Positions 17,453 through 34,716 of a stretch of 64,000 nt of DNA are shown in pieces (positions within the stretch are counted from its first letter, which is position 1; each line of letters starts with the position of its first letter). The notes under the pieces are model-generated. The model was given only the letters and a program-made list of their open reading frames with translations. It did no database searches and had not been told where the DNA came from. Position numbers and translations under genes: made by a program. The stretch spans positions 1 through 64,000 of the forward strand of contig CALDDH010000009.1 in NCBI GenBank assembly GCA_937936465.1. Reading direction: 5' to 3'. Origin of the DNA: an uncultured Mycoplasmatales bacterium. GTDB taxonomy: Bacteria; Bacillota_I; Bacilli_A; UBA3375.

Positions 17453-19783
17453 CTAATCCAAAAACTTTTTAATTCTATTTAATTCATTTGTTTGATGCTT
17501 TGTTTTTAATCTGATGATATCTGCATTAAATTTTTTATGCAATCGATCTTTTATTTTGTCACGCTCTATTTGTTTTTCTTCTTCATGAGTAGACCCATCT
17601 ACTTCAATAGAAAGCACATGTCCTTTACTAATATTTTCACTAATTAAAAAATCAACATGTGATTCTGCCTTTATGAAATTAATCTCCTCTTGTGTCAATT
17701 CAATATTACCTTTATATACCCTAACTTTATTTGTATTGTTATTATTTGAATTATATTGATTGATGAATAAATCTTTTAATCTGTATCTACGATATAAATT
17801 ATATTTTCCATTATATTTTGATAATATTTTTTCAATTTCTTCTTTAATTTTCTGTTCTGCTGGATTATAATCATATTGTTTACCAGAGTATAAAAAATCA
17901 AACATTGTAATTTTTTGATACATTCTTTCATCAAAAGTGTGATACATAATAAATTTAGTTAAATCTGAAACTAAATTATTTTCTTTTGTAAAATCCTTAG
18001 ATACTAATGTAAACTTTTCTTGAGCACGTGATACTGCTACATTAATGAAACTTGGATTATTTAAATACATAGTAACCTCCTCTCTTGGTAACGTTAAATA
18101 GATACTTCTTGCTTCTCTACCTTGATATGAGTAGACAGTCGGATAACTATTATCATTTTTATAAGGATTGATAATCCCTTCTCCATCTTTTAAAATTTCT
18201 CGTTGATCCAAGGCTTTTTTTTCAACTTCTTTTGAATTTTCACATTCAATAAATTCCATACTTTTACCTGTTGATTTTGTATGAATTTTTAACATATTGT
18301 CGTAAAAAAAAGTGTTACAAAAATGAATGATACTTCTTTCACAACGATAATGTTCAAGTAACATAATTTTGGATACATCCTTAATTTTCTCACCAAATAA
18401 CGATAGAAAGCTACCTTTTAAATTTAAACTTGTAAAATCATCAGCTTTTTTACTTGTTACAATTGGTGCAAATTGCTTTTCATCACCAACTACAATAATA
18501 TTTTTAGAACAACCAATAAGCGATATTCCCTCATATATATTCATTTGCGATGCTTCATCAATAATTAAATAATCAAATTGAAAATCCTTTGGCATTAACT
18601 TATATAATGAAAATGATGTTGATCCAATTATTGGATAAACTTTAATAAATTGCTTGAAATTTTCTTGTTTGAAATTCATTGTACTTTCCAGAATTGTTTG
18701 GGTTTCATTTTTCAAAACATTGATTGATTCTTTATTTAATTTTTCAATATCAACTTTTGCTAATTGTTTTTGTATTTTGTTTATTTTACTTTCTAATTCA
18801 TTTATTTTTTTCTCATAAGACTTTCTAACTAAATAATTATAATCCATTTTATAAAAATGCTTTTTCAAATACTTATTTACTTCATTATTTCTTTCAAAAA
18901 AATTTATATGACTTAATAAAAGTTTACTATTTAATTTATTAATTAAAAAATTGTCTTGATTATTTTCATATGTATACATTGTTTTAATATATTGATATTC
19001 TACTTCAAGATTGTACAGTTGACCTTCTAATTCTGCTTTGACATTTTGCTTTACAAAATATGAATATTTTTTTCGATATTTTTCAGTTAACTCTTGAATT
19101 GTACAATTTACTTGGACCTGCTCATTATATGGTTCTTTTTTTATTTCATTAAACTCTTTTGTTTTATCTTTACTCCCAACATTTGCCATTAAATTACCTA
19201 AATTATTTTTTTCTAATTTTTCATATACATTTTCAACTGCTGAATTAGTAGATGATATGATAGCGACAGTTTTCTTTTCAATAACTAAATTGGCAACTAT
19301 ATTCAATATTGTATTTGTTTTACCCGTTCCTGGTGGACCATCAATAACTGTATATCGGTTGTCTAAAGCTAATTTTGTTGCTTGATATTGGGTTTGATTT
19401 GTTCCAAAAGGGAAAATTAATTTATCACACTTTTGATATTGTTTATTTACCAACCCCTTATTAATAAAATCGATAACTCGCTTATCATTATTAATATTTA
19501 TTCTATTTATTAAACAAGCATTTCTCTTCTGATTAATATTAAAAATATCTTTAACATTATAGTATTCATTAAACTGCGATAATAATACTGAGAAATCGGT
19601 GTTTTCTTTGATTATTTTTGGTTTTATACAAACATTATCACTATTATATGTATACGCTTGAGTTCCACCTTGATATTTAATACTATATTTATTACTAACT
19701 TCATTAAAATTAATTGTTTCAATGTTATCTTTAATTTCTGTCTTGACATATATTAATGAATCTTTTATATTTATATTTTTAAT
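17453..19783 (-). CDS. SF1 helicase with C-terminal PD-(D/E)XK (DUF2726-like) nuclease domain
   Basis: The helicase core has Walker [13 protein letters not shown], Walker B LIIDEASQM, motif III GDEKQF and motif VI VAVSRAQEKF, the Upf1/DNA2-like SF1 class. The last ~120 residues carry a Vsr/DUF2726-like domain with Asp in VDFLI and Glu-x-Asp in IEVDGS as likely nuclease residues. The first conventional start is TTG at 19453, but the frame is open for ~110 more codons, up to a GGGGGGAG ribosome site with an ATT triplet 5 bases on (19783), suggesting a rare ATT start or a truncated 5' end. Such helicase-nuclease fusions are common in defence islands, and defence gene fragments surround it. Confidence 0.8.
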   Translation of the reverse strand: MKNINIKDSLIYVKTEIKDNIETINFNEVSNKYSIKYQGGTQAYTYNSDNVCIKPKIIKENTDFSVLLSQFNEYYNVKDIFNINQKRNACLINRININNDKRVIDFINKGLVNKQYQKCDKLIFPFGTNQTQYQATKLALDNRYTVIDGPPGTGKTNTILNIVANLVIEKKTVAIISSTNSAVENVYEKLEKNNLGNLMANVGSKDKTKEFNEIKKEPYNEQVQVNCTIQELTEKYRKKYSYFVKQNVKAELEGQLYNLEVEYQYIKTMYTYENNQDNFLINKLNSKLLLSHINFFERNNEVNKYLKKHFYKMDYNYLVRKSYEKKINELESKINKIQKQLAKVDIEKLNKESINVLKNETQTILESTMNFKQENFKQFIKVYPIIGSTSFSLYKLMPKDFQFDYLIIDEASQMNIYEGISLIGCSKNIIVVGDEKQFAPIVTSKKADDFTSLNLKGSFLSLFGEKIKDVSKIMLLEHYRCERSIIHFCNTFFYDNMLKIHTKSTGKSMEFIECENSKEVEKKALDQREILKDGEGIINPYKNDNSYPTVYSYQGREARSIYLTLPREEVTMYLNNPSFINVAVSRAQEKFTLVSKDFTKENNLVSDLTKFIMYHTFDERMYQKITMFDFLYSGKQYDYNPAEQKIKEEIEKILSKYNGKYNLYRRYRLKDLFINQYNSNNNNTNKVRVYKGNIELTQEEINFIKAESHVDFLISENISKGHVLSIEVDGSTHEEEKQIERDKIKDRLHKKFNADIIRLKTKHQTNELNRIKKFLD

Positions 19784-20063: not shown

Positions 20064-20480
20064 TTATCCAAGTGTCACAATCAGATCTTGTACTCCACTG
20101 TTTTTTAAATGTCTTCTCCATTGGTAAACTGTATCGTTATTTTGCATGCTATCTTTTAATATATCATAATGTTTAAAGTTATGATAGTAGTATTTTTCAT
20201 CTACTTTTTGATTAAAGTCTGTACAATCAAATATTGTTTTAGATGATTTTTGAGGTTTAGGGAAATCAAAATTTTTATAATCTTCTTTGTTTAAAAAACC
20301 AACAATATATATTCTTTCTCTATTTTGAGGAATATTAGCATACTCTGAAGCATTCATGACCATATACTTCACTTTATAATTTATTTCTTCTAAACTTTTT
20401 AAAATAACATCAAAAGTATTACCTTTATCATGAGAAATTAAGTTTTTAACATTTTCTAAAAAAATAACTCTTGGCTTTTT
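20064..20480 (-). pseudogene. dcm: Fragment of a C5-cytosine DNA methyltransferase
   Basis: About 138 codons in one frame. It contains motif IV (VIFLENVKNL), the spacing region, and motif VIII (YANIPQNRERIYIVGF), then VYQWRRHLKNSG, after which the expected motifs IX-X are lost and the frame ends. The catalytic PCQ motif and AdoMet-binding N-terminus are missing. At its upstream side it is fused directly to a cas13a fragment. It probably derives from a restriction-modification system. Confidence 0.75.
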
Positions 20481-20880
20481 TTCTTATTAAATTTATCTTT
20501 TATATCTTTAATATAATTGTCTTCTTCATAAAACTCTTCATAATCACGAATATCAACTTGTAAGTTTTGAAACACTTCCAATTTTAAATGTTTCTTAATA
20601 AAACCTTTTTGTTCAAAATTAATTAATGTTCTAAAAAGAATTAAGTTATCTTCCTGTATTATTAATTTTTGCTCATTATATTCATTTCCTTTTCAATATA
20701 TTGTTGATATTTAATTTTTGATAAATCATCACTCTTATTTTTTTTAATATATATTCTAATTCTTCATAGTCTGTAATAGGTAATCCATGCTTCTTATTAC
20801 TTAATATTTTATATTCTGGGTAGGCTTTATCTTTTATTTTAATTAATAATTTCAAAATTTTTTGAGTCTTTTTTCACTTA
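20481..20880 (-). pseudogene. cas13a: Decayed second cas13a fragment
   Basis: Minus-strand pieces in three frames align with residues ~855-985 of the intact Cas13a at 26155-29670: LLIKIKDKAYPEYKILSN, SDDLSKIKYQQYIEKE, then LIIQEDNLIL, RTLINFEQKGFIKK and DIRDYEEFYEEDN. Hand alignment of the longest block gives about two thirds identity, so it is a diverged relative and not a recent copy. At least two frameshifts are present. The HEPN2 domain is absent because the sequence breaks straight into the methyltransferase fragment near 20480. Confidence 0.85.
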
Positions 20881-20912: not shown

Positions 20913-21344
20913 CTATGTAAATAATACCTTACCTTCAATTTGAGCGGTAGTAACTGGACCATACAGGCGACTATCTAGGCTTATCATTGAATTATCACCA
21001 ATTACAAAATATTCCTCCTGCGCTAAAGTATAAAATTGCTTTTCGGGACAATTTTGATCACAATTAGTTGGGTATAAAACATTATTAACATATAAATCAT
21101 TATATTCATCTATCTTAATCTGATCACCAGGAAGACCAACTATCCTTTTTAAATATTGTTTATCATTAACTTCAGCAACTATAATATCATTACGACTAAG
21201 ATTAAAATATTCTTGAATTATAATAATATCATTAGCTTTGATCGTTGGCTCCATTGATGTTCCTTGAACAATTGAAAAATCAAAAAATATTGAAGCTAAA
21301 AACATCAACCCCAATATAACTATATACTTTATTTTTCTAAGCAT
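20913..21344 (-). CDS. Type I signal peptidase of bacteriocin locus 2
   Basis: ~143 residues. One N-terminal membrane helix precedes the catalytic Ser in QGTSMEPTI and the catalytic Lys in YLKRIVGLPGD; the box near the C-terminus reads VIGDNSMISLDSRLYGPV. The preferred ATG (21344) overlaps the end of the ABC ATPase gene by 16 bases. It would cleave signal peptides at the outer membrane face. Its place as the last gene of a lactococcin-972-like operon suggests a dedicated processing enzyme for the precursor encoded at 23993-24298. Confidence 0.88.
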   Translation of the reverse strand: MLRKIKYIVILGLMFLASIFFDFSIVQGTSMEPTIKANDIIIIQEYFNLSRNDIIVAEVNDKQYLKRIVGLPGDQIKIDEYNDLYVNNVLYPTNCDQNCPEKQFYTLAQEEYFVIGDNSMISLDSRLYGPVTTAQIEGKVLFT

Positions 21345-21955
21345 AATTTTTGCCCAGCCCAATTAATAACTTCCTTGTCATGACTTACAATAATAATTGT
21401 TTTTTTTTCACTTGCTAACTCTTTAAATATGTTCAAAATAATATCACGATTTTGTAAATCTAAATTCCCAGTTGGTTCATCTGCAAAAACAAATGGAGTA
21501 TCACGTAAAAACACTCTTGCCAATGCAACTCTTTGTTGTTCTCCTCCACTAAGGGTATGAATTTTTTGATTTAAGATACTCGGATCTAAATTAACTTTTT
21601 TCAAACATTCAATTAATTTATTTTTTTTAATTTTACCTTGATTAGATGCCAGTTGTAAATTTTCTTTAACAGTCTCCGTTTCCACTAAACCAAAATTTTG
21701 AAAAATAAAAGTTATTAATTTACTCCATAATATTTGATGATCTTGATATGGATTTATTTTTTGCTGATTAAAATAAATTTCTCCTTGATCATAATCAATC
21801 AATCCACTGAGAATATTTAGCAATGTACTTTTACCACTTCCACTTACACCGTTGATTACTAAAATTTCTCCATTTTCTAATGAAAAATTAATATTATTAA
21901 AAATAATTTTATTTTCAAATGATTTTTGTAATCCTTGAACTTCAATTGACTTCAT
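21329..21955 (-). CDS. ABC transporter ATP-binding protein, bacteriocin locus 2
   Basis: 208 residues: Walker A GVSGSGKST, Q-loop FQNFGLVETE, signature LSGGEQQRV, Walker B FVFADEPTGNLD and switch HD in IIVSHDKE. Same MacB/LolD-like class as the ATPase at 5276-5899. Overlaps the upstream membrane-protein gene by 4 bases. It should pair with the 662-residue membrane protein in bacteriocin export or immunity. Confidence 0.9.
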   Translation of the reverse strand: MKSIEVQGLQKSFENKIIFNNINFSLENGEILVINGVSGSGKSTLLNILSGLIDYDQGEIYFNQQKINPYQDHQILWSKLITFIFQNFGLVETETVKENLQLASNQGKIKKNKLIECLKKVNLDPSILNQKIHTLSGGEQQRVALARVFLRDTPFVFADEPTGNLDLQNRDIILNIFKELASEKKTIIIVSHDKEVINWAGQKLCLEK

Positions 21956-23940
21956 CGTTCTCCTTTCAAAATATTTTTTTTTCTAAGTAAATATACTCTT
22001 ATTCTTTGACTTACCAATATTTGAATTATCAATATTAAAATCAAAAGTAATGATAAATATATATTCTTAAATAAAACAATACAAATAATTGTAGCTATGA
22101 TAATAAAAAATGGAATAATCAATAAATCTTCATAAATTTGTTTTTTAAAAATACTTTTTACTTTCCAACCATGAAAATACATTAAGCTATATTTTTTTTG
22201 ATTAACATTATATTCAATCAAAATCAAATAATAAATAAATATAAAGTAGATTAATAAATTGATTATAAAAGTTATACTTAATGCTACTAATAATTGATAT
22301 TCAATTATCATTTTTTGATTAGTTCCATCAAGTGTATTTTTAGTTTCCACAATACTTGCTTGTAAATTATTACCTTCAATTAAGTAACTAATTTGATCAT
22401 ACGGATACTGACTTGTTGTTGAAAAATGTAAACTACCTGTTGATAACATTGTTAAATAATTATCAACGCTTAATTGATTCTGATCAACTACTACAATATC
22501 TGAGTAAACTTCACCTTGTTTACCAATAAGTGGGTCATAAGTAAAGTATGTTGTTTTATCTGTCCAAATAATATTCAACTCAGTATTATAATCCTCTATA
22601 TTTTGACAAATACTTTTTACATAACAATCATAATCATATTTAGTATCACTATACATTTGCTCATTCATTTCAATACTAATTTTATCTTTATCTTCTTTAT
22701 ACTGTTCATTAACAATTATGTTATTTGCTCCTTCTTGTAGTTGGGAAATTTCATTTTCCATACCTTGTTCTTTTAAGTATTGTTCATTAACTCGAACCTC
22801 ACAATTAAAACTAGTACAAGCATTATCCTCTAAATTTGTAGCATAAAATAAAACAGCATCATATTCTTCTTCTAAGTCAATTTTTAAATTTTTTAGATTT
22901 TCATTTAATTTAAATTCATCTTCATCTGTTAATAACCCTGTCCACTTTAAAGTGAAGTGGTAATAATTTTCATATGGTTTAAAAACAGCTAAATCTTGAT
23001 AATCATCATTAATCAAAATTATTAAATAAAAAATTAATATACTTAATATTGATACAATTAAAAATAATAAATATTTATAAAATTTAAGGATTTTAGTAAT
23101 AATTGTATTTTTTTGATATTTATGTAAATAATTAATCATCTGCTCTTTAGCAATTCTATTAGCAAAGGTATATTTGATTAAATATAACAAAGACAATACA
23201 ATTATAAAGATGATTAAAAATAAAAGATTAAAAATAACATATGAAATAAGATTATATTTAAAGTAAATAAGGAAAAATAAAATGTAAAAAATTGATAATA
23301 TTTTCAAGTTTATTAATTCATTATTTAAAAAATGATTTCTACTTTTTTGCCTAACACCAAAAAATTTTTCTAGAGCAAATCTTTCTCGTAATAAAAAACC
23401 TTCAAAAATAAATATTAAAATTGTAAAAATAAACATTAAAATGGTAAGAATACATAAATAAAAATATATTGGACCATTATGATAACTTGTTGTTGGAATA
23501 TTAGCAACAGAGCCTAAATTATTATTAATTAATTGTTTATTAATATATTCTATTTCTGATTGAGGATCATCTGATTCAATTTTGTAGACACCCCCTACTC
23601 CATTATTGTAAACTTTACTAATATCACTAAATGTATATTTATCTTCCCTAAAAGAAAATGGTTGCATCCATTTTTGCTCAACCTCTTGATCTATTTCATT
23701 ATTATATTGATTTGTATAGATTATAATTTCATCTTGTTTATGAACTTCTTTGTAAATCAATTGCTCAGAGGTTTCAAAGATATCAATCACCTTATCAATA
23801 TTAGCATCATCATTTATTACTACTGAAAACTCTACCCCATCAAATAATTGTTTAGTGACTAGCCCATTCCATAAACCAACTGTCACAAAATATAAAGATA
23901 TTAATAAGATAATTAAAATTGTTTGTTTAATTACTTTCAT
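21952..23940 (-). CDS. Bacteriocin-associated integral membrane protein (DUF1430-like), intact
   Basis: ~662 residues. ATG 23940 follows AAAGGAGGTGG, a stronger start than the upstream GTG/ATG options. Layout: an N-terminal helix, a ~140-residue extracellular domain, four helices in the middle (about 160-270), another helix, a large extracellular domain (about 320-530) and a C-terminal helix group, that is two FtsX/MacB-like halves. This is the architecture of membrane proteins found with lactococcin 972. The homologue at 5892-7875 is split by a frameshift. It is separated from the peptide gene by an intrinsic terminator. Confidence 0.8.
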   Translation of the reverse strand: MKVIKQTILIILLISLYFVTVGLWNGLVTKQLFDGVEFSVVINDDANIDKVIDIFETSEQLIYKEVHKQDEIIIYTNQYNNEIDQEVEQKWMQPFSFREDKYTFSDISKVYNNGVGGVYKIESDDPQSEIEYINKQLINNNLGSVANIPTTSYHNGPIYFYLCILTILMFIFTILIFIFEGFLLRERFALEKFFGVRQKSRNHFLNNELINLKILSIFYILFFLIYFKYNLISYVIFNLLFLIIFIIVLSLLYLIKYTFANRIAKEQMINYLHKYQKNTIITKILKFYKYLLFLIVSILSILIFYLIILINDDYQDLAVFKPYENYYHFTLKWTGLLTDEDEFKLNENLKNLKIDLEEEYDAVLFYATNLEDNACTSFNCEVRVNEQYLKEQGMENEISQLQEGANNIIVNEQYKEDKDKISIEMNEQMYSDTKYDYDCYVKSICQNIEDYNTELNIIWTDKTTYFTYDPLIGKQGEVYSDIVVVDQNQLSVDNYLTMLSTGSLHFSTTSQYPYDQISYLIEGNNLQASIVETKNTLDGTNQKMIIEYQLLVALSITFIINLLIYFIFIYYLILIEYNVNQKKYSLMYFHGWKVKSIFKKQIYEDLLIIPFFIIIATIICIVLFKNIYLSLLLILILIIQILVSQRIRVYLLRKKNILKGER

Positions 23941-23958
23941 TCCACCTCCTTTATGTAT

Positions 23959-23986
23959 TAAAAAAGACATTTAGATAAATGTCTTT
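23959..23986 (-). terminator. Terminator between bacteriocin 2 and its membrane-protein gene
   Basis: On the minus strand the perfect arms GACATTTA/TAAATGTC (23966-23983, 2-base loop) are followed by TTTTTT. It lies 7 bases after the peptide stop and before the strong ribosome site of the next gene, so peptide mRNA should exceed mRNA for the transporter genes. Confidence 0.85.
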
Positions 23987-23992
23987 AAGTTA

Positions 23993-24298
23993 TTAGCGAT
24001 AATCATAATATGCTTTATTTCCACCACCTGTTAAATATTGTTGTGTGGCATTAGAAAAAACATCTTTTGATTTCCAACCACCTGACTTATATTCCCCGCC
24101 TGAATCAACTGATGAGGCATGTCCCTCATAACCATCATCTGTTGCTTTATATTCTGATCTTAATGTAAATGTCGGAGTATATGTTCCCCTAATCCAATAC
24201 CCCTTGTTTACATAACCTGAAACAACACTAGCACTCACCATTCCTGAAAAATTAATTAATAAAAATAAAAATATACTTATACTTAAAATTTTTTTCAT
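23993..24298 (-). CDS. Lactococcin 972-family bacteriocin precursor 2
   Basis: 101 residues. The signal peptide (MKKILSISIFLFLLINFSG) ends near VSAS. The mature part (GYWIRGTY ... RSEYKATDDGYEGHASS ... GGWKSKDVFSNAT ... GGGNKAYYDYR) matches the lactococcin 972 pattern of W/G-rich start, Y-x-x-x-x-x-H-S-S core and terminal NKAYY. No cysteine, unlike the peptide at 7885-8169. The start has GAGGAGG seven bases upstream, and TATAAT lies at 24319-24324. The operon continues with the membrane protein, ATPase and signal peptidase. Confidence 0.8.
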   Translation of the reverse strand: MKKILSISIFLFLLINFSGMVSASVVSGYVNKGYWIRGTYTPTFTLRSEYKATDDGYEGHASSVDSGGEYKSGGWKSKDVFSNATQQYLTGGGNKAYYDYR

Positions 24299-24571: not shown

Positions 24572-24876
24572 GTTTTAGTCCCCTTCGTTTTTGGGGTCAT
24601 CTATATCAATACAAGTTTGTGAAAGAATGTAAATATTATGTTTTAGTCCCCTTCGTTTTTGGGGTCATCTATATCTCTAAAGTCTTGAACAATAACTCCA
24701 CTTGATAGTTTTAGTCCCCTTCGTTTTTGGGGTCATCTATATCTGGACAAAAGAAACTACCGAAGAGCCAACAGTTTTAGTCCCCTTCGTTTTTGGGGTC
24801 ATCTATATCAATAACAGATGTTGCAAACAATGTAATATACGTTTTAGTCCCCTTCGTTTTTGGGGTCATCTATATC
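24572..24876 (-). CRISPR. Type VI-A CRISPR array 1 (5 repeats, 4 spacers)
   Basis: Five identical 36-base repeats at 24572-24607, 24640-24675, 24708-24743, 24774-24809 and 24841-24876, with spacers of 32, 32, 30 and 31 bases. Read on the minus strand (crRNA sense) the repeat begins GATATAGATGACCCC and ends GGGGACTAAAAC, with a CCCC/GGGG stem. This is the Cas13a direct-repeat pattern, in which the repeat sits 5' of each spacer. The leader is on the high-coordinate side (24877-24930) and is shared with array 2. The array is cut off from cas13a by a dead IS3 element. Confidence 0.97.
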
Positions 24877-24930
24877 CAATGATTGGATATATACTTTAAT
24901 TATAATACTTTATCTTCAATATTACAAATT
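24871..24930 (-). promoter_or_regulatory. Leader and promoter of CRISPR array 1
   Basis: TTGTAA (24922-24927) and TATAAT (24899-24904), 17-base spacer, point into the array. A perfect palindrome with 9-bp arms (TATATCCAA/TTGGATATA, 24871-24891) straddles the leader-repeat junction. The ~55-base leader differs from the leader of array 2 at only about two positions. Confidence 0.8.
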
Positions 24931-24960
24931 ATTTTTAAACTTTTATATATTGATTTATCC

Positions 24961-25006
24961 TTATTTTAATTGTTTTTTTTCTATTTCGGTAATAATATAG
25001 TCTTAT
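24961..25006. repeat. Degenerate copy of the dispersed AT-rich repeat
   Basis: TATTTTAATTG ... CGGTAATAATATAG resembles the 37-bp repeat at 1694-1732 and 2494-2532. It lies directly left of the IS3 element. Confidence 0.4.
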
Positions 25007-26092
25007 GGATAGTCTATAATATATGTGACACAAAACTCTATTAATATTGATACAATATTATAAAGGAGAGATTATGTCAAAAAGAAAAACATATTCAAAA
25101 AAATTTAAGTTAAAAATTGTGCAATTAAAAGAAAGTGTTGTATCTAGAAAAAAATATTACAAGATTATGATTTGAAACACCAAACATTTGATCGTTGGTT
25201 AATGGTATAACGCATGTCAAGTAGTTCTTCAAACCCTGAAATTTCTTTAACCGATGAACAAAAGAAAATTTCAGAGTTAGAACGTAAATTACGTCAAGTC
25301 CAAAGAGCACGCGATATTTTAAAGGATGCAACCTTAATACTAGGGAGGAAATAATAACTGCTATTAAGGTATTAAATGAAGAAAAAGGATATTCAATAAG
25401 TGAATTATGCAAACAATTAAAAATAAGTCGTGAAACATATTATCGATACTTTAGAAAAAATAAAATATTCAAATATATGAAAGAAAACATTCAACGGCAA
25501 AGAAAAAAGAAATTTATGGAAGTAGAAAGATTCGTAATATTCTTAATACGTATAATATAAATGGAAAGAAAGTGAAGTTATCTCGCCACCAAATACTTAG
25601 AAAGATGAAGTAGATGGGTGGATATATATATGTTTCATAATAGATTTATTTAATCGTGAAATTATTGGATATTCAATCTCCAAGTATCATGATACTGAAT
25701 GTGTATTGAAATCATTGAAAAATATTAAATTTGATTTGAAGACTACTAGGTTATTTCATAGTGATCGTGGTGGAGAATTTGCCTCTGGTGAATTGTCAGA
25801 ATATCTAAATAAATTTGATATTACTCAATCAATGTCACGTGCTGGGTGTCCATACGATAATGCAGTTAGTGAAAATATGTTTAAATTATTGAAAGTTGAG
25901 GGGATCGATAGGTATTATCAATTTGATAGCAATTTAATGCTGGATGTAAATGAATGGGTCAAGTGGTATAACAATGTACGTATACATATAAAAATCAATT
26001 ATACTACACCTGTATTATACGGAAAACAATATGAATTAAAAACAGCTTAATTATTAATAGAGTATTTTGTCACATTAAAATTTGACAATCCA
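25006..26092 (+). mobile_element. IS3-family (IS150-like) insertion sequence, inactive
   Basis: A ~1.09-kb element bounded by imperfect ~40-bp inverted repeats starting TGGATWGTC (25006-25047 and 26051-26092) and containing orfA/orfB relics. No clean target duplication is visible (TTA versus TCA). It lies between CRISPR array 1 and the 3' end of cas13a. A left-end relic of the same element is at 828-916. Confidence 0.8.
25074..26050 (+). pseudogene. IS3-type transposase orfA/orfB, multiply broken
   Basis: orfA starts at ATG 25074 (MSKRKTYSKKFKLKIVQLKE) and then shifts frame. Its C-terminal coiled coil (DEQKKISELERKLRQVQRA) is still readable. orfB (KVLNEEKGYSISELCKQL...) is broken by frameshifts and an internal deletion that removes the region of the first catalytic Asp. 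The last open part (25706-26050) retains the second Asp in FHSDRGGEF and the Glu in NAVSENMFK. It cannot encode an active transposase. Confidence 0.88.
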
Positions 26093-26154
26093 TCATTTAT
26101 ATTATAACATAATATATAAAACATATAGATTATGCTAAAGTTAAGTAATTATTT

Positions 26155-29100
26155 TTAATATTTTATATTTCCCTTATTATTTAAAAGTAAAAATCTGATT
26201 TCTTCCATTACAATTAAATCTAATTCAATCTTAAAAATATCGTCCTTATTATAATAAATCGTTTTAACTTTTGGTTTTAAACCTTCTATTATAATCTTTT
26301 CTTTAAATAATATATCTGAAAAATCAATTTTATACTTTCTAAATATTGTAATTACTATCTCTTTTAAAGCATTTCTTTCTTTTATAAAGTTATTTTCATG
26401 TAATACTTTATGGTAAGCTAAAATAATCCCAAATATATTATCATTATCATTTAAATAATCATAGTGATCAATTCTATTTCTAATTGTATTCAAGTCTTTT
26501 ATATATGTTACTATTTGATCAAATTTTCTCATTTCAGACACTAACCTCATATTTAATTCATATTCAAATTTTATTTTTTTGACTAATAATTTTAATTTTA
26601 ATTTATTATCTAAGTAATCATGTTTCAATATATTCTTGTTTAATTGAATTAATTTGTTTTGTTTCTCATTAAAAACTTTACTTTCTAATTTATATATTTC
26701 TTTTCTTAATTCATTGTATTGGTCTTTTATATCCTTAATATGATTATCCTTTTTATAAAAATCTTCATATTCATGAATATCATTGTTTAAGTCTTGAAAG
26801 ATTTTAATTTCTAAATATTTCTTAATAAAACCTTTATTTTCAAAATTAATTAATGTTCTAGAAAGAATTAAGTTTTTTTCCTGAATTATTAAGGGTTGTT
26901 CTTTTATTTCATTTTCATTGTCAATATATTGTTTATATTTAATTGTTGATAAGTCCTCTCTATCATATATTATTTGCAATCTTTTATTCAATCCTTTGTA
27001 GCCCTCACCATGAATAGGAAATCCTTTTTTCCCATTACTTAACAATTGATATTTTGGAAGTTCTTTATCCTTTATTTTTAATAATAATGTAAGAAATTCT
27101 AGAAGTATTTCTAATTCTTCTAAATACTTCTCTCTAGTATTATTAATATCGTATTTATTTAAATATTCTGCGTGTTGGACTTTAAAATCATCTTCTTCAT
27201 ATCTTTTGGTTAAAATAGTTTTATACTTCAATGTGTTTTGAATCAATGAAGATATTTCATCTATACTATTGAAAATACTACTCATTACTATATATTTAAA
27301 ATTAATGTTTAATATTTGGATATTGTTTTTAACCTGATCTAATGTCTTTTTACATTGACATTCAATCTTAGGTATATTTTCATATTCTCTTCCACCTTCT
27401 ATTTGTTTGATATTATCAAAAATAAATCTATAGTTTTCTTTTATATAATCTCCAAAATTATAACTAATATATTTTTCAAATTTAATTTGATATTGCTTAA
27501 CTTTACTTTCATTACCATTAGCTAATTGAAGCAATTGTCTTTGTTTTTCAATTAAATCTATATCTTCATTTTTAAATATATCTATAAGTTTCTGATTTTT
27601 ATTACACAATGTGTCAAAATATTTATTATTTTTGATAGAACATAAAAAATCATTAACATGGTTATATATTTCTTCTAACAAATATTTTATTGCATTATAC
27701 TTTGTTATATTAAAATCCTTTTGATCAAGACCTAAAATTTGTCTAATATAGTTATCATCTATGCTTCTACTATGATTTATTAGTTTGTGAAACCTAGGTA
27801 ATGCAGTTTTTTTAATTGCAAAAATATCTAATCCACTATATAATTTATTAATTTTTTCTTGAGTAAAATACATATATATTGCATTACTATTTAATTTAGC
27901 TACTTCATATTCCGCTAAATCAAATTCATTAATTTTTTTTGACCAGTATATATTGTATTTTTTAATAAATTCTTCTATAATACATTCATCTAATTTACTA
28001 TCATCTTTAACATGATATAAATAATTTCTCAACCTTATTAGTGCTAATGATAATTCTGGACTTTCTTTTAGCTCATCAATATCTAGTTTATCTACTTTAT
28101 TATAGTAACATTTCTCATTAATTGCATTAATACCATCCCCAAATAAATCATTGTATTTATTTTTATCATTATTTTTATTGTATTTATTATTAAATAAATA
28201 TAATGTTGGAGAAATATTTTGAGCTAACTTTGATTTAAATGTATTTTCTAATTTAATTATTTCTTTTTGATACCTATTATGATTAAAATTTGTACTATTT
28301 ATATATGTATCATTTTGCATATCATTTTTCAATTCTTTTATAATATTGTATTGTATATTACTAAATATACTATTTTCAATTTTTGACTGTAAATATTTAA
28401 CTTTAAAATACTTCTTAATCTTTATTTGTTGTTCACTTTTATTTTCAATTAATAATATCTTTTTATAACGACCTTGTATAGTTTGATGAACTAATTTTAA
28501 AACCCTTAATGAATCATCTCCTTTAATTAATTTTGTGTCAATTGTTAAATGATTAATTAATTCTTCTTTTCCTTTTTCTTTATTTTCTATATATATTTTA
28601 AATTGACTTTGATAATGATTTTTTACTGTATTAATTAATTCAGATATCCCATTATTATAATTAACAGCATTAATTAATGCATTAACATTAAATTTTTCAA
28701 TAATTTTTTTTATATCACTTTTTATATTTTCATTTATCTTTTTAATTTCATCTTGTTTTTTTTGTTTTTCATTTTTTGACAAATTAGCTTTATCAAGATT
28801 AAATGTTTTATATTTAATTTCTTTAAAATATTTTTTTGCATTTATGCTTGGAAATGTAGAATTTAGTTTTTTATTAATTGAGCTAAATTCTCCCAACTTA
28901 TAATTACTTTTTAAAATACTATCTAATTGTATTTCACTTAAATTTTTATCATAAAACAAAAAGAATGAATAAATTTGCTTTAACATTTCTTCGCTCTTTA
29001 TATATTCATATAATTTATCATCATCAATAAAATTATTTTTTTCTAATTCTTTGGCAATAAATCTTATGAAGTTATTGAAGTGTTTTATCTTTAAATCACC

Positions 29101-29670
29101 CATACCTAATAGTAATTTTTCTATTTTTATTGGGTTTTTTTCATCTATTAATTTCTCCCTTGTGAATTGATCAAATGACTTTTCCACATTAGTAGTATTT
29201 TTACGATACACACCATCCATATTTATTTCAAATCTACATTTGAAATTATTATTATTATTATTAATTTCAAATAAAAAAAAATTTAAAAATTCATTTATTG
29301 CCTTTTTCAATTGATTTCTCTGGATTAATAAATCTCTTTCAAAATCTGTATAATAATCACGAGTTATTTTATGACCATTAATTCTATGTTTTCCATCAGA
29401 ATACTTTTTATTGAATCTCTCTTTAAATTTACTGTATGATTCATCATTTCCCTTTCTATTAACAATAAAATATTTTTCATTGTTTACACAATCTCCATCT
29501 ATTGATTTATAAACAATATTTTGGATTTGATTATCTTTGAATTCATAAATTATATTATTTTCAAAATATTTTTCTTTGATTTCACTAATATTGTGTATCT
29601 TTTTACCATACTTATATTTATTAATATCAACTCTCTCAATATTATATTGTTTAAATTTTCCTTTTGACAT
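26155..29670 (-). CDS. cas13a: Cas13a (C2c2), type VI-A CRISPR RNA-guided RNase
   Basis: 1171 residues, in the usual Cas13a range. Two HEPN RNase motifs of the RN-x3-H type are intact: HEPN1 RNYLYH (Arg548, Asn549, His553) and HEPN2 RNRIDH (Arg1064, Asn1065, His1069), with spacing and a C-terminal second HEPN as in Cas13a. It is Lys/Asn/Ile-rich with no other recognisable domain. Guided by crRNA from the adjacent arrays, family members bind complementary single-stranded RNA and then cut target and bystander RNA, causing dormancy of infected cells. ATG 29670 follows GAGGAG. It has its own TATAAT (29717-29722) after a terminator separating it from array 2. A relic relative lies at 20481-20880. 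Confidence 0.97.
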   Translation of the reverse strand: MSKGKFKQYNIERVDINKYKYGKKIHNISEIKEKYFENNIIYEFKDNQIQNIVYKSIDGDCVNNEKYFIVNRKGNDESYSKFKERFNKKYSDGKHRINGHKITRDYYTDFERDLLIQRNQLKKAINEFLNFFLFEINNNNNNFKCRFEINMDGVYRKNTTNVEKSFDQFTREKLIDEKNPIKIEKLLLGMGDLKIKHFNNFIRFIAKELEKNNFIDDDKLYEYIKSEEMLKQIYSFFLFYDKNLSEIQLDSILKSNYKLGEFSSINKKLNSTFPSINAKKYFKEIKYKTFNLDKANLSKNEKQKKQDEIKKINENIKSDIKKIIEKFNVNALINAVNYNNGISELINTVKNHYQSQFKIYIENKEKGKEELINHLTIDTKLIKGDDSLRVLKLVHQTIQGRYKKILLIENKSEQQIKIKKYFKVKYLQSKIENSIFSNIQYNIIKELKNDMQNDTYINSTNFNHNRYQKEIIKLENTFKSKLAQNISPTLYLFNNKYNKNNDKNKYNDLFGDGINAINEKCYYNKVDKLDIDELKESPELSLALIRLRNYLYHVKDDSKLDECIIEEFIKKYNIYWSKKINEFDLAEYEVAKLNSNAIYMYFTQEKINKLYSGLDIFAIKKTALPRFHKLINHSRSIDDNYIRQILGLDQKDFNITKYNAIKYLLEEIYNHVNDFLCSIKNNKYFDTLCNKNQKLIDIFKNEDIDLIEKQRQLLQLANGNESKVKQYQIKFEKYISYNFGDYIKENYRFIFDNIKQIEGGREYENIPKIECQCKKTLDQVKNNIQILNINFKYIVMSSIFNSIDEISSLIQNTLKYKTILTKRYEEDDFKVQHAEYLNKYDINNTREKYLEELEILLEFLTLLLKIKDKELPKYQLLSNGKKGFPIHGEGYKGLNKRLQIIYDREDLSTIKYKQYIDNENEIKEQPLIIQEKNLILSRTLINFENKGFIKKYLEIKIFQDLNNDIHEYEDFYKKDNHIKDIKDQYNELRKEIYKLESKVFNEKQNKLIQLNKNILKHDYLDNKLKLKLLVKKIKFEYELNMRLVSEMRKFDQIVTYIKDLNTIRNRIDHYDYLNDNDNIFGIILAYHKVLHENNFIKERNALKEIVITIFRKYKIDFSDILFKEKIIIEGLKPKVKTIYYNKDDIFKIELDLIVMEEIRFLLLNNKGNIKY

Positions 29671-29716
29671 AATTTCTCCTCTTTTGTATTTTTTTCTTCC
29701 CTATTTTCTCAATAAT

Positions 29717-29722
29717 ATTATA
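29717..29722 (-). promoter_or_regulatory. -10 box of the cas13a promoter
   Basis: TATAAT on the minus strand, 47 bases upstream of the start codon; the -35 is weak (TTACTT-like). It lies downstream of the terminator at 29746-29767, so cas13a is probably transcribed separately from array 2. Confidence 0.5.
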
Positions 29723-29745
29723 ACAATAAAACTTTAAAAAGTAAT

Positions 29746-29767
29746 AAAAAACTTAATCTAAATTAAG
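29746..29767 (-). terminator. Terminator between CRISPR array 2 and cas13a
   Basis: On the minus strand CTTAAT/ATTAAG arms (29752-29767) are followed by TTTTTTATT. It would end the array 2 transcript before cas13a. Confidence 0.65.
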
Positions 29768-29873
29768 GTCTTTTCTTATATTTAAAAATCCTTACTAATC
29801 AAAGTAAATAATGATTAATAAAGATTTTTGTAATTTATTTTATTTACTTAATGATTATTACTCTTAGGTTCAC

Positions 29874-30311
29874 TTACTTGTCCCTTTCGTTTTTGGTGGC
29901 ATCTATATCCATTTCAATATATTCCAGAAGAAAAAATAAGTTTTAGTTCCCTTCGTTTTTGGGGTCATCTATATCAAAATGAAAAGATCTTTACATTTTA
30001 TATTTAGTTTTAGTCTCATTCGTTTTTGGGGTCATCTATATCAGAAGCAAATACGACTACATTTACGACAGAGTTTTAGTCCCCTTCGTTTTTGGGGTCA
30101 TCTATATCCAAACACAATTGAAAGATTTTTAGTTGATTAGTTTTAGTCCCCTTCGTTTTTGGGGTCATCTATATCGTAGTATATAATTACCAGTTTACAG
30201 TGTTTGAGTTTTAGTCCCCTTCGTTTTTGGGGTCATCTATATCACAAATATTCAAAAAAGGAGGCTGATATATCAGTTTTAGTCCCCTTCGTTTTTGGGG
30301 TCATCTATATC
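29874..30311 (-). CRISPR. Type VI-A CRISPR array 2 (7 repeats, 6 spacers)
   Basis: 36-base repeats at 29874, 29940, 30007, 30073, 30140, 30208 and 30276 (last ends at 30311); spacers of 30, 31, 30, 31, 32 and 32 bases. The four repeats nearest the leader are identical to those of array 1. The one at 30007 has two changes, the one at 29940 has one, and the terminal repeat at 29874 is strongly degenerate (about seven changes). This decay away from the leader fits crRNA transcription on the minus strand. It lies between cas2 and cas13a. Confidence 0.97.
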
Positions 30312-30370
30312 CAATGATTGGATATATACTTTAATTATAGTACTTTATCTTAAATATTACAAATTTATTT
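30306..30370 (-). promoter_or_regulatory. Leader and promoter of CRISPR array 2
   Basis: TTGTAA (30357-30362) and TATAAT (30334-30339), 17-base spacer, reading into the array. The palindrome TATATCCAA-N3-TTGGATATA (30306-30326) spans the junction with the first repeat. The leader is nearly identical to that of array 1 and starts 26 bases after the cas2 stop. Confidence 0.8.
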
Positions 30371-30395
30371 TTTGTTTTTTTTAGTTTTTTTATCT

Positions 30396-30719
30396 TTAAA
30401 ATTCAATTAACCTTGTTTTCCTACTTATTATTTTCTCACTTAATGATTTATCCCCTGCTATTACTTCCATCTTTTCATATTGATTGTTTGGTATGAGTAA
30501 CATTCTAATATTTGAGTTGTTTGGGCTACTTAGTTTCAATTGACTTTTTAAATTTAAATAACTAGGTTTTTGATTCAAACTTTTTATATACACTGACTCT
30601 TGCAACATCATAAAGCCAATTGATAAAATATGCTTTCTAAATTTATTATAATCCTTTGATTCTTTAATATTATTATTTGGAATATCATATATTAAAATGA
30701 TTGTATATTTAATACTCAT
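30396..30719 (-). CDS. cas2: Cas2 adaptation protein
   Basis: ~107 residues from ATG 30719 (MSIKYTIILIYDIPNNN); an in-frame start ten codons earlier lies inside cas1 and is less likely. The ferredoxin-like fold is recognisable: beta-1 ending YDIPN with the conserved Asp, RKHILSIGFMMLQESVYI with the Q-x-S-V-y strand, and RMLLIPNNQYEKM. It overlaps the cas1 stop by 11 bases. It forms the integrase complex with Cas1. The similarity is to type II-A-like Cas2, as is typical for type VI-A adaptation modules. Confidence 0.93.
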   Translation of the reverse strand: MSIKYTIILIYDIPNNNIKESKDYNKFRKHILSIGFMMLQESVYIKSLNQKPSYLNLKSQLKLSSPNNSNIRMLLIPNNQYEKMEVIAGDKSLSEKIISRKTRLIEF

Positions 30720-31605
30720 AGTGCTCACAATTAGTAACTGGTAGATCAATCTTTTTTATATCATAATTTAAGTAATCAATTATATTATTAATAAATATTT
30801 GAACACTTGTTTTATACTCTTTCTTTTGATTATTAATGACTACTGTTTGAAATATTAACTGTTGTAAATATTCTTTTTCAACCTTGGTAAATATATTATC
30901 TTTAATCATCAACAAATATACAACATAATCTACCATTGGCCGATATACTTCAATTAAATCATCAGCTAAATTAAAGTTATTAAATTGATTACTGTGCCAA
31001 ATACCAAGTGCTGGGCTTAATCCTTTGGCAACTATTTGTTGTTTAATGACACTCCTTAAAATTGCATATCCATAATTAAGTCCATAATTTATCTCATCTT
31101 CTGCAAATCTAATAAATTTATTTGTATATAATTCTTTAAAATAAATTCTTGCAACTTGTGCTTCAATACTAATGAAATTATCTTTAGTTATTTTTAATTT
31201 TAAACATTTTATTTTTCTAATTATAGCTTGATCTTTATTAAAGTGTTCTAATAATAATAATTGATTATCTATTTTTTGCTCTATTATTTTCATAAATAAT
31301 TTTTGTTTACGACTTTCTTTCCATTTAATTTGTTTCTCTAACCTAGATAATTGTTTATAAAACGTATGAAAAGAAGTAGTTAGTGCCAGTGGGGTATATT
31401 TTTGATCACAATAAATAATTGGAACACTATATTTTGCACAAATTATATTTACTGATGCTGTTATGGAGCAATTTGGATTTTCAATTATTAATACTTCTAT
31501 TTGATTAATTGGAACTTTATTTGTCTCTTCATTGACTACTATGACTATGTTATTATTTTCAACTTTTAGTTTACTCATGCTTTTTACAGTTATGATATTA
31601 CTCAT
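30709..31605 (-). CDS. cas1: Cas1 spacer integrase
   Basis: 298 residues. The catalytic metal ligands are visible: Glu148 (SIEAQVARIYF), His204 (GIWHSNQFNNFN) and Glu219 (DLIEVYRPMVD), together with NYGLNYGYAILRS. The sequence resembles the Cas1 of type II-A systems. With Cas2 it inserts new spacers at the leader end. The start has AAAGGA nine bases upstream of ATG 31605. A hairpin terminator (31648-31682) isolates the gene from the upstream surface-protein gene. A complete adaptation module suggests this type VI-A locus can still acquire spacers. Confidence 0.95.
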   Translation of the reverse strand: MSNIITVKSMSKLKVENNNIVIVVNEETNKVPINQIEVLIIENPNCSITASVNIICAKYSVPIIYCDQKYTPLALTTSFHTFYKQLSRLEKQIKWKESRKQKLFMKIIEQKIDNQLLLLEHFNKDQAIIRKIKCLKLKITKDNFISIEAQVARIYFKELYTNKFIRFAEDEINYGLNYGYAILRSVIKQQIVAKGLSPALGIWHSNQFNNFNLADDLIEVYRPMVDYVVYLLMIKDNIFTKVEKEYLQQLIFQTVVINNQKKEYKTSVQIFINNIIDYLNYDIKKIDLPVTNCEHYEY

Positions 31606-33728: not shown

Positions 33729-34619
33729 TTATATATTTAAGTAAAGTTCATATTTCATAATTATTATAAATATTTCATCTAACCACTCATTGGTACAATT
33801 CAATTTTTGATAATATTTTATGGATTTTTCTAATTCTCTAATAAAATCATTAAAAACATACTTTTTCATTTTAAATGTACAGTCATTCTTGCTTAAAAAA
33901 TAATGTACTAAATCAATCAAATATATTTGTTCTGTTAATAGAAATTTATTATAGTTTTTTTTTATATATTTTTTAGTTTCATATTTTTCTTCAGACCAAG
34001 TATCAGAAAATATTGTATTCAATATCTTCTCTTGAACTTGTTCTCTTTCTTGAACTGGTTTTAATTTTTGTTTTGTATCAAAATATAGTAAATTATCATG
34101 GTGAGAAACTTTATTTCTTATATTATTTATCTTTGGCTCAATAAATTTTTTTTCTTTAAATATATTATTATATATTGCTATCAAATCACTAAGGTAATAA
34201 TAATCATACAATTGAAAAAATTCAAAATTAGGATTTTTTAATGTTTTTTCAATTTCATTTATTTTATTTATAAATTTTTTTTGTTTTTTTTCTATATATA
34301 ATTTAATGTCATTGTTTATTTTTTGCTTATCAACTTTATTTTTTAAACTATAAATACGACTTAAATATACTTTTATTTGATGCTCAAATGTTTTTATTAA
34401 TATTTCAAATGCTCTACTATAATAAAAATTAACTAGCCCACCCATTCTAATATCATCAAATGTTAAATTATTATATTTACCATTTTGAAAACCTTTGAAC
34501 ATTTCTCTTGATGGCTTTAACAACTGCCAAGTTGTATTATACTCTAAATATTCTATTGTATTTATTTCATCATTAATTATTAAGCCTTTTTCTTTCAAAT
34601 TATCAATAACTTTTTGCAC
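33729..34619 (-). CDS. Abi/AbiF-like HEPN RNase (putative toxin of an RNA-protein module)
   Basis: ~296 residues from GTG 34619, just after AAGGGGGG. An earlier in-frame GTG at 34646 is inside a terminator stem and is unlikely. The N-terminus (VIDNLKEKGLIINDEINTIE ... LVNFYYSRAFEILIKTFEHQ) resembles the Abi_2/AbiD/AbiF phage-exclusion family. The HEPN catalytic motif RNKVSHH (Arg168, Asn169, His173) has the RN-x3-H form also seen in Cas13a. No membrane helix. Family members act as abortive-infection factors, probably by RNA cleavage. A promoter, structured small RNA and terminator directly upstream suggest an RNA antitoxin or guide-like partner. It lies 2.1 kb upstream of the type VI-A locus on the same strand. 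Confidence 0.75.
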   Translation of the reverse strand: MQKVIDNLKEKGLIINDEINTIEYLEYNTTWQLLKPSREMFKGFQNGKYNNLTFDDIRMGGLVNFYYSRAFEILIKTFEHQIKVYLSRIYSLKNKVDKQKINNDIKLYIEKKQKKFINKINEIEKTLKNPNFEFFQLYDYYYLSDLIAIYNNIFKEKKFIEPKINNIRNKVSHHDNLLYFDTKQKLKPVQEREQVQEKILNTIFSDTWSEEKYETKKYIKKNYNKFLLTEQIYLIDLVHYFLSKNDCTFKMKKYVFNDFIRELEKSIKYYQKLNCTNEWLDEIFIIIMKYELYLNI

Positions 34620-34634
34620 GTCCCCCCTTAAAAT

Positions 34635-34716
34635 AAAAAAAGCCACTAGTTATATAATAACTAATGGTAAAATCCTAACATAAATGTTTGATTTTCTCCA
34701 GTACCCCTGTACCTAC
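34635..34716 (-). ncRNA. Putative ~80-nt structured small RNA upstream of the HEPN gene
   Basis: Predicted transcript on the minus strand, from about 34716 to a T-run at 34635-34641. Three hairpins can be drawn: GTAC-AGGG-GTAC at the 5' end; a central stem with AAAATC/GATTTT and inner AACAT/ATGTT; and a terminator with 11-bp arms (34643-34667, one mismatch). It has no ORF and ends 16 bases before the HEPN start. The arrangement promoter-RNA-terminator-toxin gene is that of RNA-antitoxin modules; its true role is inferred. Confidence 0.6.
34643..34667 (-). terminator. Terminator of the small RNA
   Basis: CCATTAGTTAT / ATAACTAGTGG arms with a 3-base loop, followed on the minus strand by GCTTTTTTT. 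Leaky read-through would feed the HEPN gene. Confidence 0.85.

Follow-up and report, generated by a model that had tools for sequence, protein, structure and literature searches.

The window (the whole 64,000-nt stretch of DNA analysed, from contig C9 of an 87%-complete assembly of 987 kb) very probably carries a type VI-A-like CRISPR-Cas locus whose Cas13a-like effector is deeply diverged and nearest to the L. shahii type. The assignment draws on gene content, the identity of repeats and leaders, the ancestry of Cas1, the collinearity of the effector with Cas13a and the conserved catalytic residues, all of them read from the sequence. The effector matched no curated Cas13a model, therefore the type VI-A label needed more than an ordinary search.

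Organisation of the locus

The order on the minus strand was cas1, cas2, leader and array A, effector, a broken IS3 element, and leader and array B. The features of the locus were as follows:

30709..31605, minus strand: cas1, 298 aa, type VI-A clade (TIGR03639, E=4.6e-70; tree; metal ligands)
30396..30719, minus strand: cas2 (TIGR01573, E=1.2e-17; YDIP motif)
30312..30398, minus strand: leader of array A, with a TTGTAA-17-TATAAT promoter-like site at 30362..30334
29874..30311, minus strand: CRISPR array A, 7 repeats (GATATAGATGACCCCAAAAACGAAGGGGACTAAAAC) and 6 spacers (30-32 nt); the distal repeats are degenerate
26155..29670, minus strand: cas13a-like effector, 1171 aa (Helical-1 R401/K404, HEPN1 R548/H553, HEPN2 R1064/H1069)
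25005..26093, plus strand: IS3-family element, degenerate, with terminal inverted repeats; separates array B from cas13a
24877..24963, minus strand: leader of array B, with a promoter-like site at 24927..24899
24572..24876, minus strand: CRISPR array B, 5 identical repeats and 4 spacers
20309..20859, minus strand: decayed second cas13a fragment, 63% amino acid identity to residues 920-991, with frameshifts and stops

The GC content was 26% across the window compared to 19% in the effector gene. The stretch separating array B from the 3' end of cas13a is occupied by the broken IS3-type element (25005-26093), which does not belong to the CRISPR system. For cas2, ATG at 30719 was a likelier start than the TTG at 30749 used by the ORF caller. 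An Rfam search of 19-35 kb of the window gave no match. All parts of the locus listed in an earlier sequence-only reading were recovered where it had placed them, and its description of a complete type VI-A locus agreed with the repeat, the Cas1 tree and the collinear Cas13a alignment, with other subtypes covered by PADLOC models only.

Repeats, spacers and leaders

Both arrays share one 36-nt repeat, as had been read before. On the transcribed strand, the repeat (GATATAGATGACCCCAAAAACGAAGGGGACTAAAAC) is nearly the same as the Leptotrichia Cas13a repeat, and most of the changes lie in the loop and ahead of the stem. It has the type VI-A features of a length within 35-39 nt, a short stem and a 3' dinucleotide bulge, with a CCCC/GGGG stem followed on its 3' side by AC (hairpin z=-2.4). 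An AC bulge after the stem is a mark of U-cleaving Cas13a (PMC8209922). When 84,980 species were scanned for repeats of this type, 14 stretches were returned, among them Leptotrichia, Listeria and the divergent type VI-A locus of the SnakePit MAG.

The three leader-distal repeats of array A carry 2, 1 and 7 changes, while the five repeats of array B are identical; the repeat decay away from the leader described earlier therefore holds for array A and not for array B. All ten spacers of the two arrays differ from one another. Protospacer searches gave only chance-level matches, both for the ten spacers by blastn against a phage collection and the genome itself and for six of the ten by exact 24-mers in IMG/VR. 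The leaders were indeed recognisable, with 87% identity between the leader regions of arrays A and B over 129 nt. TTGTAA-17-TATAAT is present in both leaders, and TATAATTAAAG recurs in the leader of a related genome (G001). The promoter scan as a whole was not above its shuffles, so the promoter-like site is argued from this conservation.

The possibility of the second array serving the type II system of the same genome was ruled out since the array of that system is built on another repeat. The type II locus (L074; G000:C3, 29.5-36.2 kb) consists of a 1290-aa Cas9-like ORF, cas1, cas2 and an array.

Cas1 and Cas2

The identities of Cas1 and Cas2 leave no ambiguity. The profile match of Cas1 looks type II-like, as is the case for type VI-A Cas1 proteins generally. 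In a tree of 36 Cas1 proteins, the window Cas1 was placed within a seven-member type VI-A clade (support 100/99) made up of the window, Leptotrichia VI-A loci, the SnakePit MAG VI-A locus and G001, with both the type II Cas1 proteins from the class and the type II Cas1 of this genome falling outside the clade. This indicates that the adaptation module shares the ancestry of type VI-A and did not come from a local type II system. Residues E148, H204, D216 and E219 were unchanged in 36 of 36 Cas1 proteins, which agrees with the three ligands reported in the sequence-only reading; the metal ligands are E148, H204 and D216 or E219. The same reading had regarded a linked cas1-cas2 as uncommon for type VI-A; in Leptotrichia VI-A loci, cas1-cas2 are usually found downstream of cas13a (PMC6914741), so this point was not retained.

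G001, the one further member of the order that was sampled, carries cas1 (53% identical Cas1), cas2, a leader and the same repeat. Its 5.6-kb contig contains cas1 and cas2, then an array in which the contig ends, and the effector was either absent from the assembly or not recognised. The presence of cas1-cas2 and the repeat in G001 as well indicates that the family carried the module across two genera. In this sister-genus genome, a 767-aa protein with a P-loop (GGYGAGKSS), a possible defence NTPase, is encoded directly upstream of the VI-A-type cas1 (L072, 1406-3706, minus strand).

Effector motifs and database searches

No match was found for the effector in Pfam, NCBIfam (including the Cas13a model NF038188), PADLOC or PDB sequences, with E=10 for PADLOC and PDB; the PADLOC search covered all models, Cas13a included, and gave no match of any kind. 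Listeria Cas13a controls produced 715-797 bits with curated Cas13a models. Such a match marks a threshold of annotation and not a biological criterion, and the effector fell below it. Standard annotation here would give cas1, cas2 and two arrays without an effector. A tblastn search of the effector in plasmids and phages gave no match, and scans of genome contigs and viral sequences for proteins closely related to the effector or to Cas13a gave nothing usable. Across 395 genomes of the class, only the effector itself, its own fragment and one 30% match over 91 residues were found, the last of which was judged to be chance. AlphaFold predictions of the effector were uninformative (pLDDT of 31 with one sequence and 37 with four C-terminal sequences) and too poor for a fold search.

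Exactly two RNxxxH motifs are present in the effector, RNYLYH at 548 and RNRIDH at 1064 of 1171 residues; at least two such motifs arose in 37 of 20,000 shuffles of the same composition. These are the two HEPN motifs that had been called intact, and they are in register with 11 Cas13a proteins. The layout is also that of Cas13a, a large single protein with HEPN1 central and HEPN2 near the C-terminus.

Effector alignment and phylogeny

A BLAST search against Leptotrichia Cas13a gave one collinear stretch (E=0.001, single-subject search). Alignment of the single effector to six Cas13a proteins with hhalign scored 33.6 for the HEPN1 region and 25.4 for HEPN2 with correct order and register. Among 400 motif-preserving shuffles, the best score was 29.9 overall, and the best with HEPN1 aligned in register was 23.7, compared to 33.6 for the effector. 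With six more Cas13a proteins added, the scores rose to 35.0 (HEPN1) and 29.6 (HEPN2), which is the behaviour expected of true homology. Against the L. shahii group alone, one continuous alignment of 411 columns was obtained from Helical-1 to the end of HEPN1 with a score of 34.9, compared to a maximum of 27.0 in 120 shuffles. The hhalign probabilities for the effector against Cas13a were all below 10%, and pairwise significance is weak.

Unconstrained MAFFT alignment with 11 Cas13a proteins placed R438, K441, R597, H602, R1278 and H1283 of LshCas13a (L099) on identical effector residues (R401, K404, R548, H553, R1064 and H1069, respectively). LshCas13a needs R438 and K441 to process pre-crRNA (PMC6013697). 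Among the compared Cas13a proteins, Arg at the position of Lsh R438 was common to the effector and the L. shahii/SnakePit group only, and Lwa-type and Listeria Cas13a have Glu at this position.

In the effector tree, the nearest neighbours were Lsh-type and SnakePit Cas13a with a support of 100/99, or 89/88 once a divergent protein from another genome of the class (G030) was added. The branch length of the effector was approximately 2.8-3.0 changes per site, and its amino acid composition was skewed. The tree is unrooted and thus indicates nearness to the L. shahii group, not strict membership. The protein search and tree suggested in the sequence-only reading gave no match with curated models and a position next to Lsh-type/SnakePit Cas13a, on a very long branch, and its candidate new Cas13a branch was supported. 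From these comparisons, the effector was concluded to be a deep, fast-evolving branch of Cas13a.

It is improbable that the effector comes from another Cas13 subtype or an undescribed HEPN family and lies beside a captured type VI-A adaptation module and array. An origin of this kind would fit an effector with no match to any curated Cas13a model and a gene order (cas1-cas2-array-effector-array) unlike that of SnakePit (cas13a-cas1-cas2-array), but the homology to Cas13a reaches well past the motifs, collinear from Helical-1 through HEPN1 and beyond HEPN2. The Helical-1 Arg, common to the effector and the Lsh clade only among the compared Cas13a, and the agreement of the Cas1 and effector trees, also count against it.

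Predicted mode of action

Expression, crRNA processing, RNA cleavage and immunity would be expected from the conserved residues, the repeat structure and established Cas13a biology. Cas1-Cas2 would insert spacers of 30-32 nt beside the shared leader in both arrays, and each leader promoter would drive a minus-strand pre-crRNA. The effector itself is predicted to cut the pre-crRNA via the Helical-1 site (R401/K404). The resulting crRNA would have a 5' repeat handle with the CCCC/GGGG stem and then AC, the bulge typical of U-cleaving Cas13a. The composite HEPN site, R548/H553 with R1064/H1069, would be activated by a complementary phage transcript, and would cleave both target and bystander RNA and shut down the infected cell.

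Cas13a has here diverged beyond all curated models while its crRNA handle stayed nearly fixed, a combination that would allow the reading of the handle by Cas13a to be tested cleanly. Going by the repeat, the effector should accept Leptotrichia-type crRNAs despite 24% identity.

Comparison with known Cas13 systems

Shared with the L. shahii VI-A locus (LshCas13a, L099) are the repeat core and AC bulge, a linked cas1-cas2 belonging to the one clade, an effector that aligns collinearly, the R-X4-H pairs of both HEPN domains and the residues corresponding to R438/K441 of Helical-1. However, the window effector has 24% identity over approximately 1000 columns (23-24% to the L. shahii type) and is 218 aa shorter, the gene order is changed, and the window has two arrays and an effector without a curated model match. 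The SnakePit MAG VI-A locus (L019) also contains cas1-cas2 (Cas1 35% identical to the window Cas1) and the same repeat type, and its effector is likewise far under the NCBIfam cut-off (22.9 of 150 bits). It differs in the gene order given above and in an effector of 1483 aa that is weakly recognised by Cas13a models. In the SnakePit MAG (L019, L018 and L023), HEPN1 of the 1483-aa effector reads RGNIIH, and further arrays on two other contigs have a slightly different repeat (CAATATCG instead of CAATATTG).

Listeria Cas13a (L013, L024) has HEPN motifs in register with a spacing of 522-549 residues compared to 516 in the window, and a repeat ending in GGACTAAAAC. Its identity to the window effector is only 16-18%, Glu takes the place of the Helical-1 Arg, and cas1-cas2 were not seen in the stretches examined. 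Cas13an (PMC12165695) is similarly a Cas13 overlooked by sequence models, but is 429-577 aa in length and has neither a linked cas1-cas2 nor a canonical REC lobe. A Cas13an identity was ruled out by the 1171 aa of the window effector and its linked cas1-cas2.

A search by repeat and Cas1 finds type VI effectors missed by protein searches, and the same approach yielded the Cas13a of G030. This 1211-aa Cas13a-like protein (L114 96-3728, L113) has RNNISH and RNECLH motifs and lies beside an array whose repeat (...CACCCCAAAACCGAAGGGGTCTAAAAC) has the bulge TC instead of AC; its PADLOC Cas13a match is weak (44.7 bits over the C-terminal part). Another genome of the class (G002; L033/L075) encodes a 1280-aa Cas13a with 146.8 bits to NF038188, and no cas1-cas2 or obvious array was found within the 18 kb examined around it.

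A tentative and rather doubtful extension is that the order (two sampled species) carries its own Cas13 subgroup, in which the Leptotrichia crRNA handle and Cas1-Cas2 were kept but the effector changed until it could no longer be recognised; its handle recognition, nuclease preference or regulation might be altered too. Other genomes might then hide similar 'effector-less' VI-A loci that a search by repeat would reveal.

Second cas13a copy and neighbouring genes

The decayed cas13a fragment is on the same strand as the locus, beyond array B, and together with the duplicated leader it suggests a former second leader-array-cas13a unit. The chance that array B and the fragment are left over from such a duplicated unit, which is compatible with the type VI-A-like reading, was considered about even. 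Array B shares its leader, repeat and strand with array A, the fragment lies downstream of array B, and the regions downstream of the two arrays aligned slightly above block-shuffled controls (164 compared to a maximum of 158 in 300 shuffles). However, this downstream similarity is weak and AT-rich, and four unrelated genes (bacteriocin-type export, signal peptidase) separate array B from the fragment. The genes between array B and the fragment (20913-24298, minus strand) encode a 672-aa bacteriocin-associated membrane protein, a small secreted protein, a lactococcin-972-type exporter ATPase and signal peptidase I.

The decayed second copy, the IS3 remnant inside the locus, the short arrays and the protospacers not found could also point to a VI-A remnant with relic arrays and an effector or adaptation that has lost its function. 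This was regarded as improbable given that 1171 codons are open at 19% GC, where chance stop codons are frequent, that the effector and Cas1 both have intact catalytic residues, and that the leader-proximal repeats are intact as well. Ten different spacers and two near-identical leaders were also retained.

A 305-aa protein near the Cas locus (33729-34646, minus strand) has a HEPN-like motif (IRNKVSHHD) and looks like an Abi-type RNase; it had no match in Pfam and PADLOC. On the other side of the locus, the cas13a fragment is truncated next to a C5-methylase remnant (20064-20372), which is adjoined by an AAA_11-type helicase with a C-terminal DUF2726 (17453-19453, minus strand). The region of the helicase and the methylase remnant is a decaying defence island.
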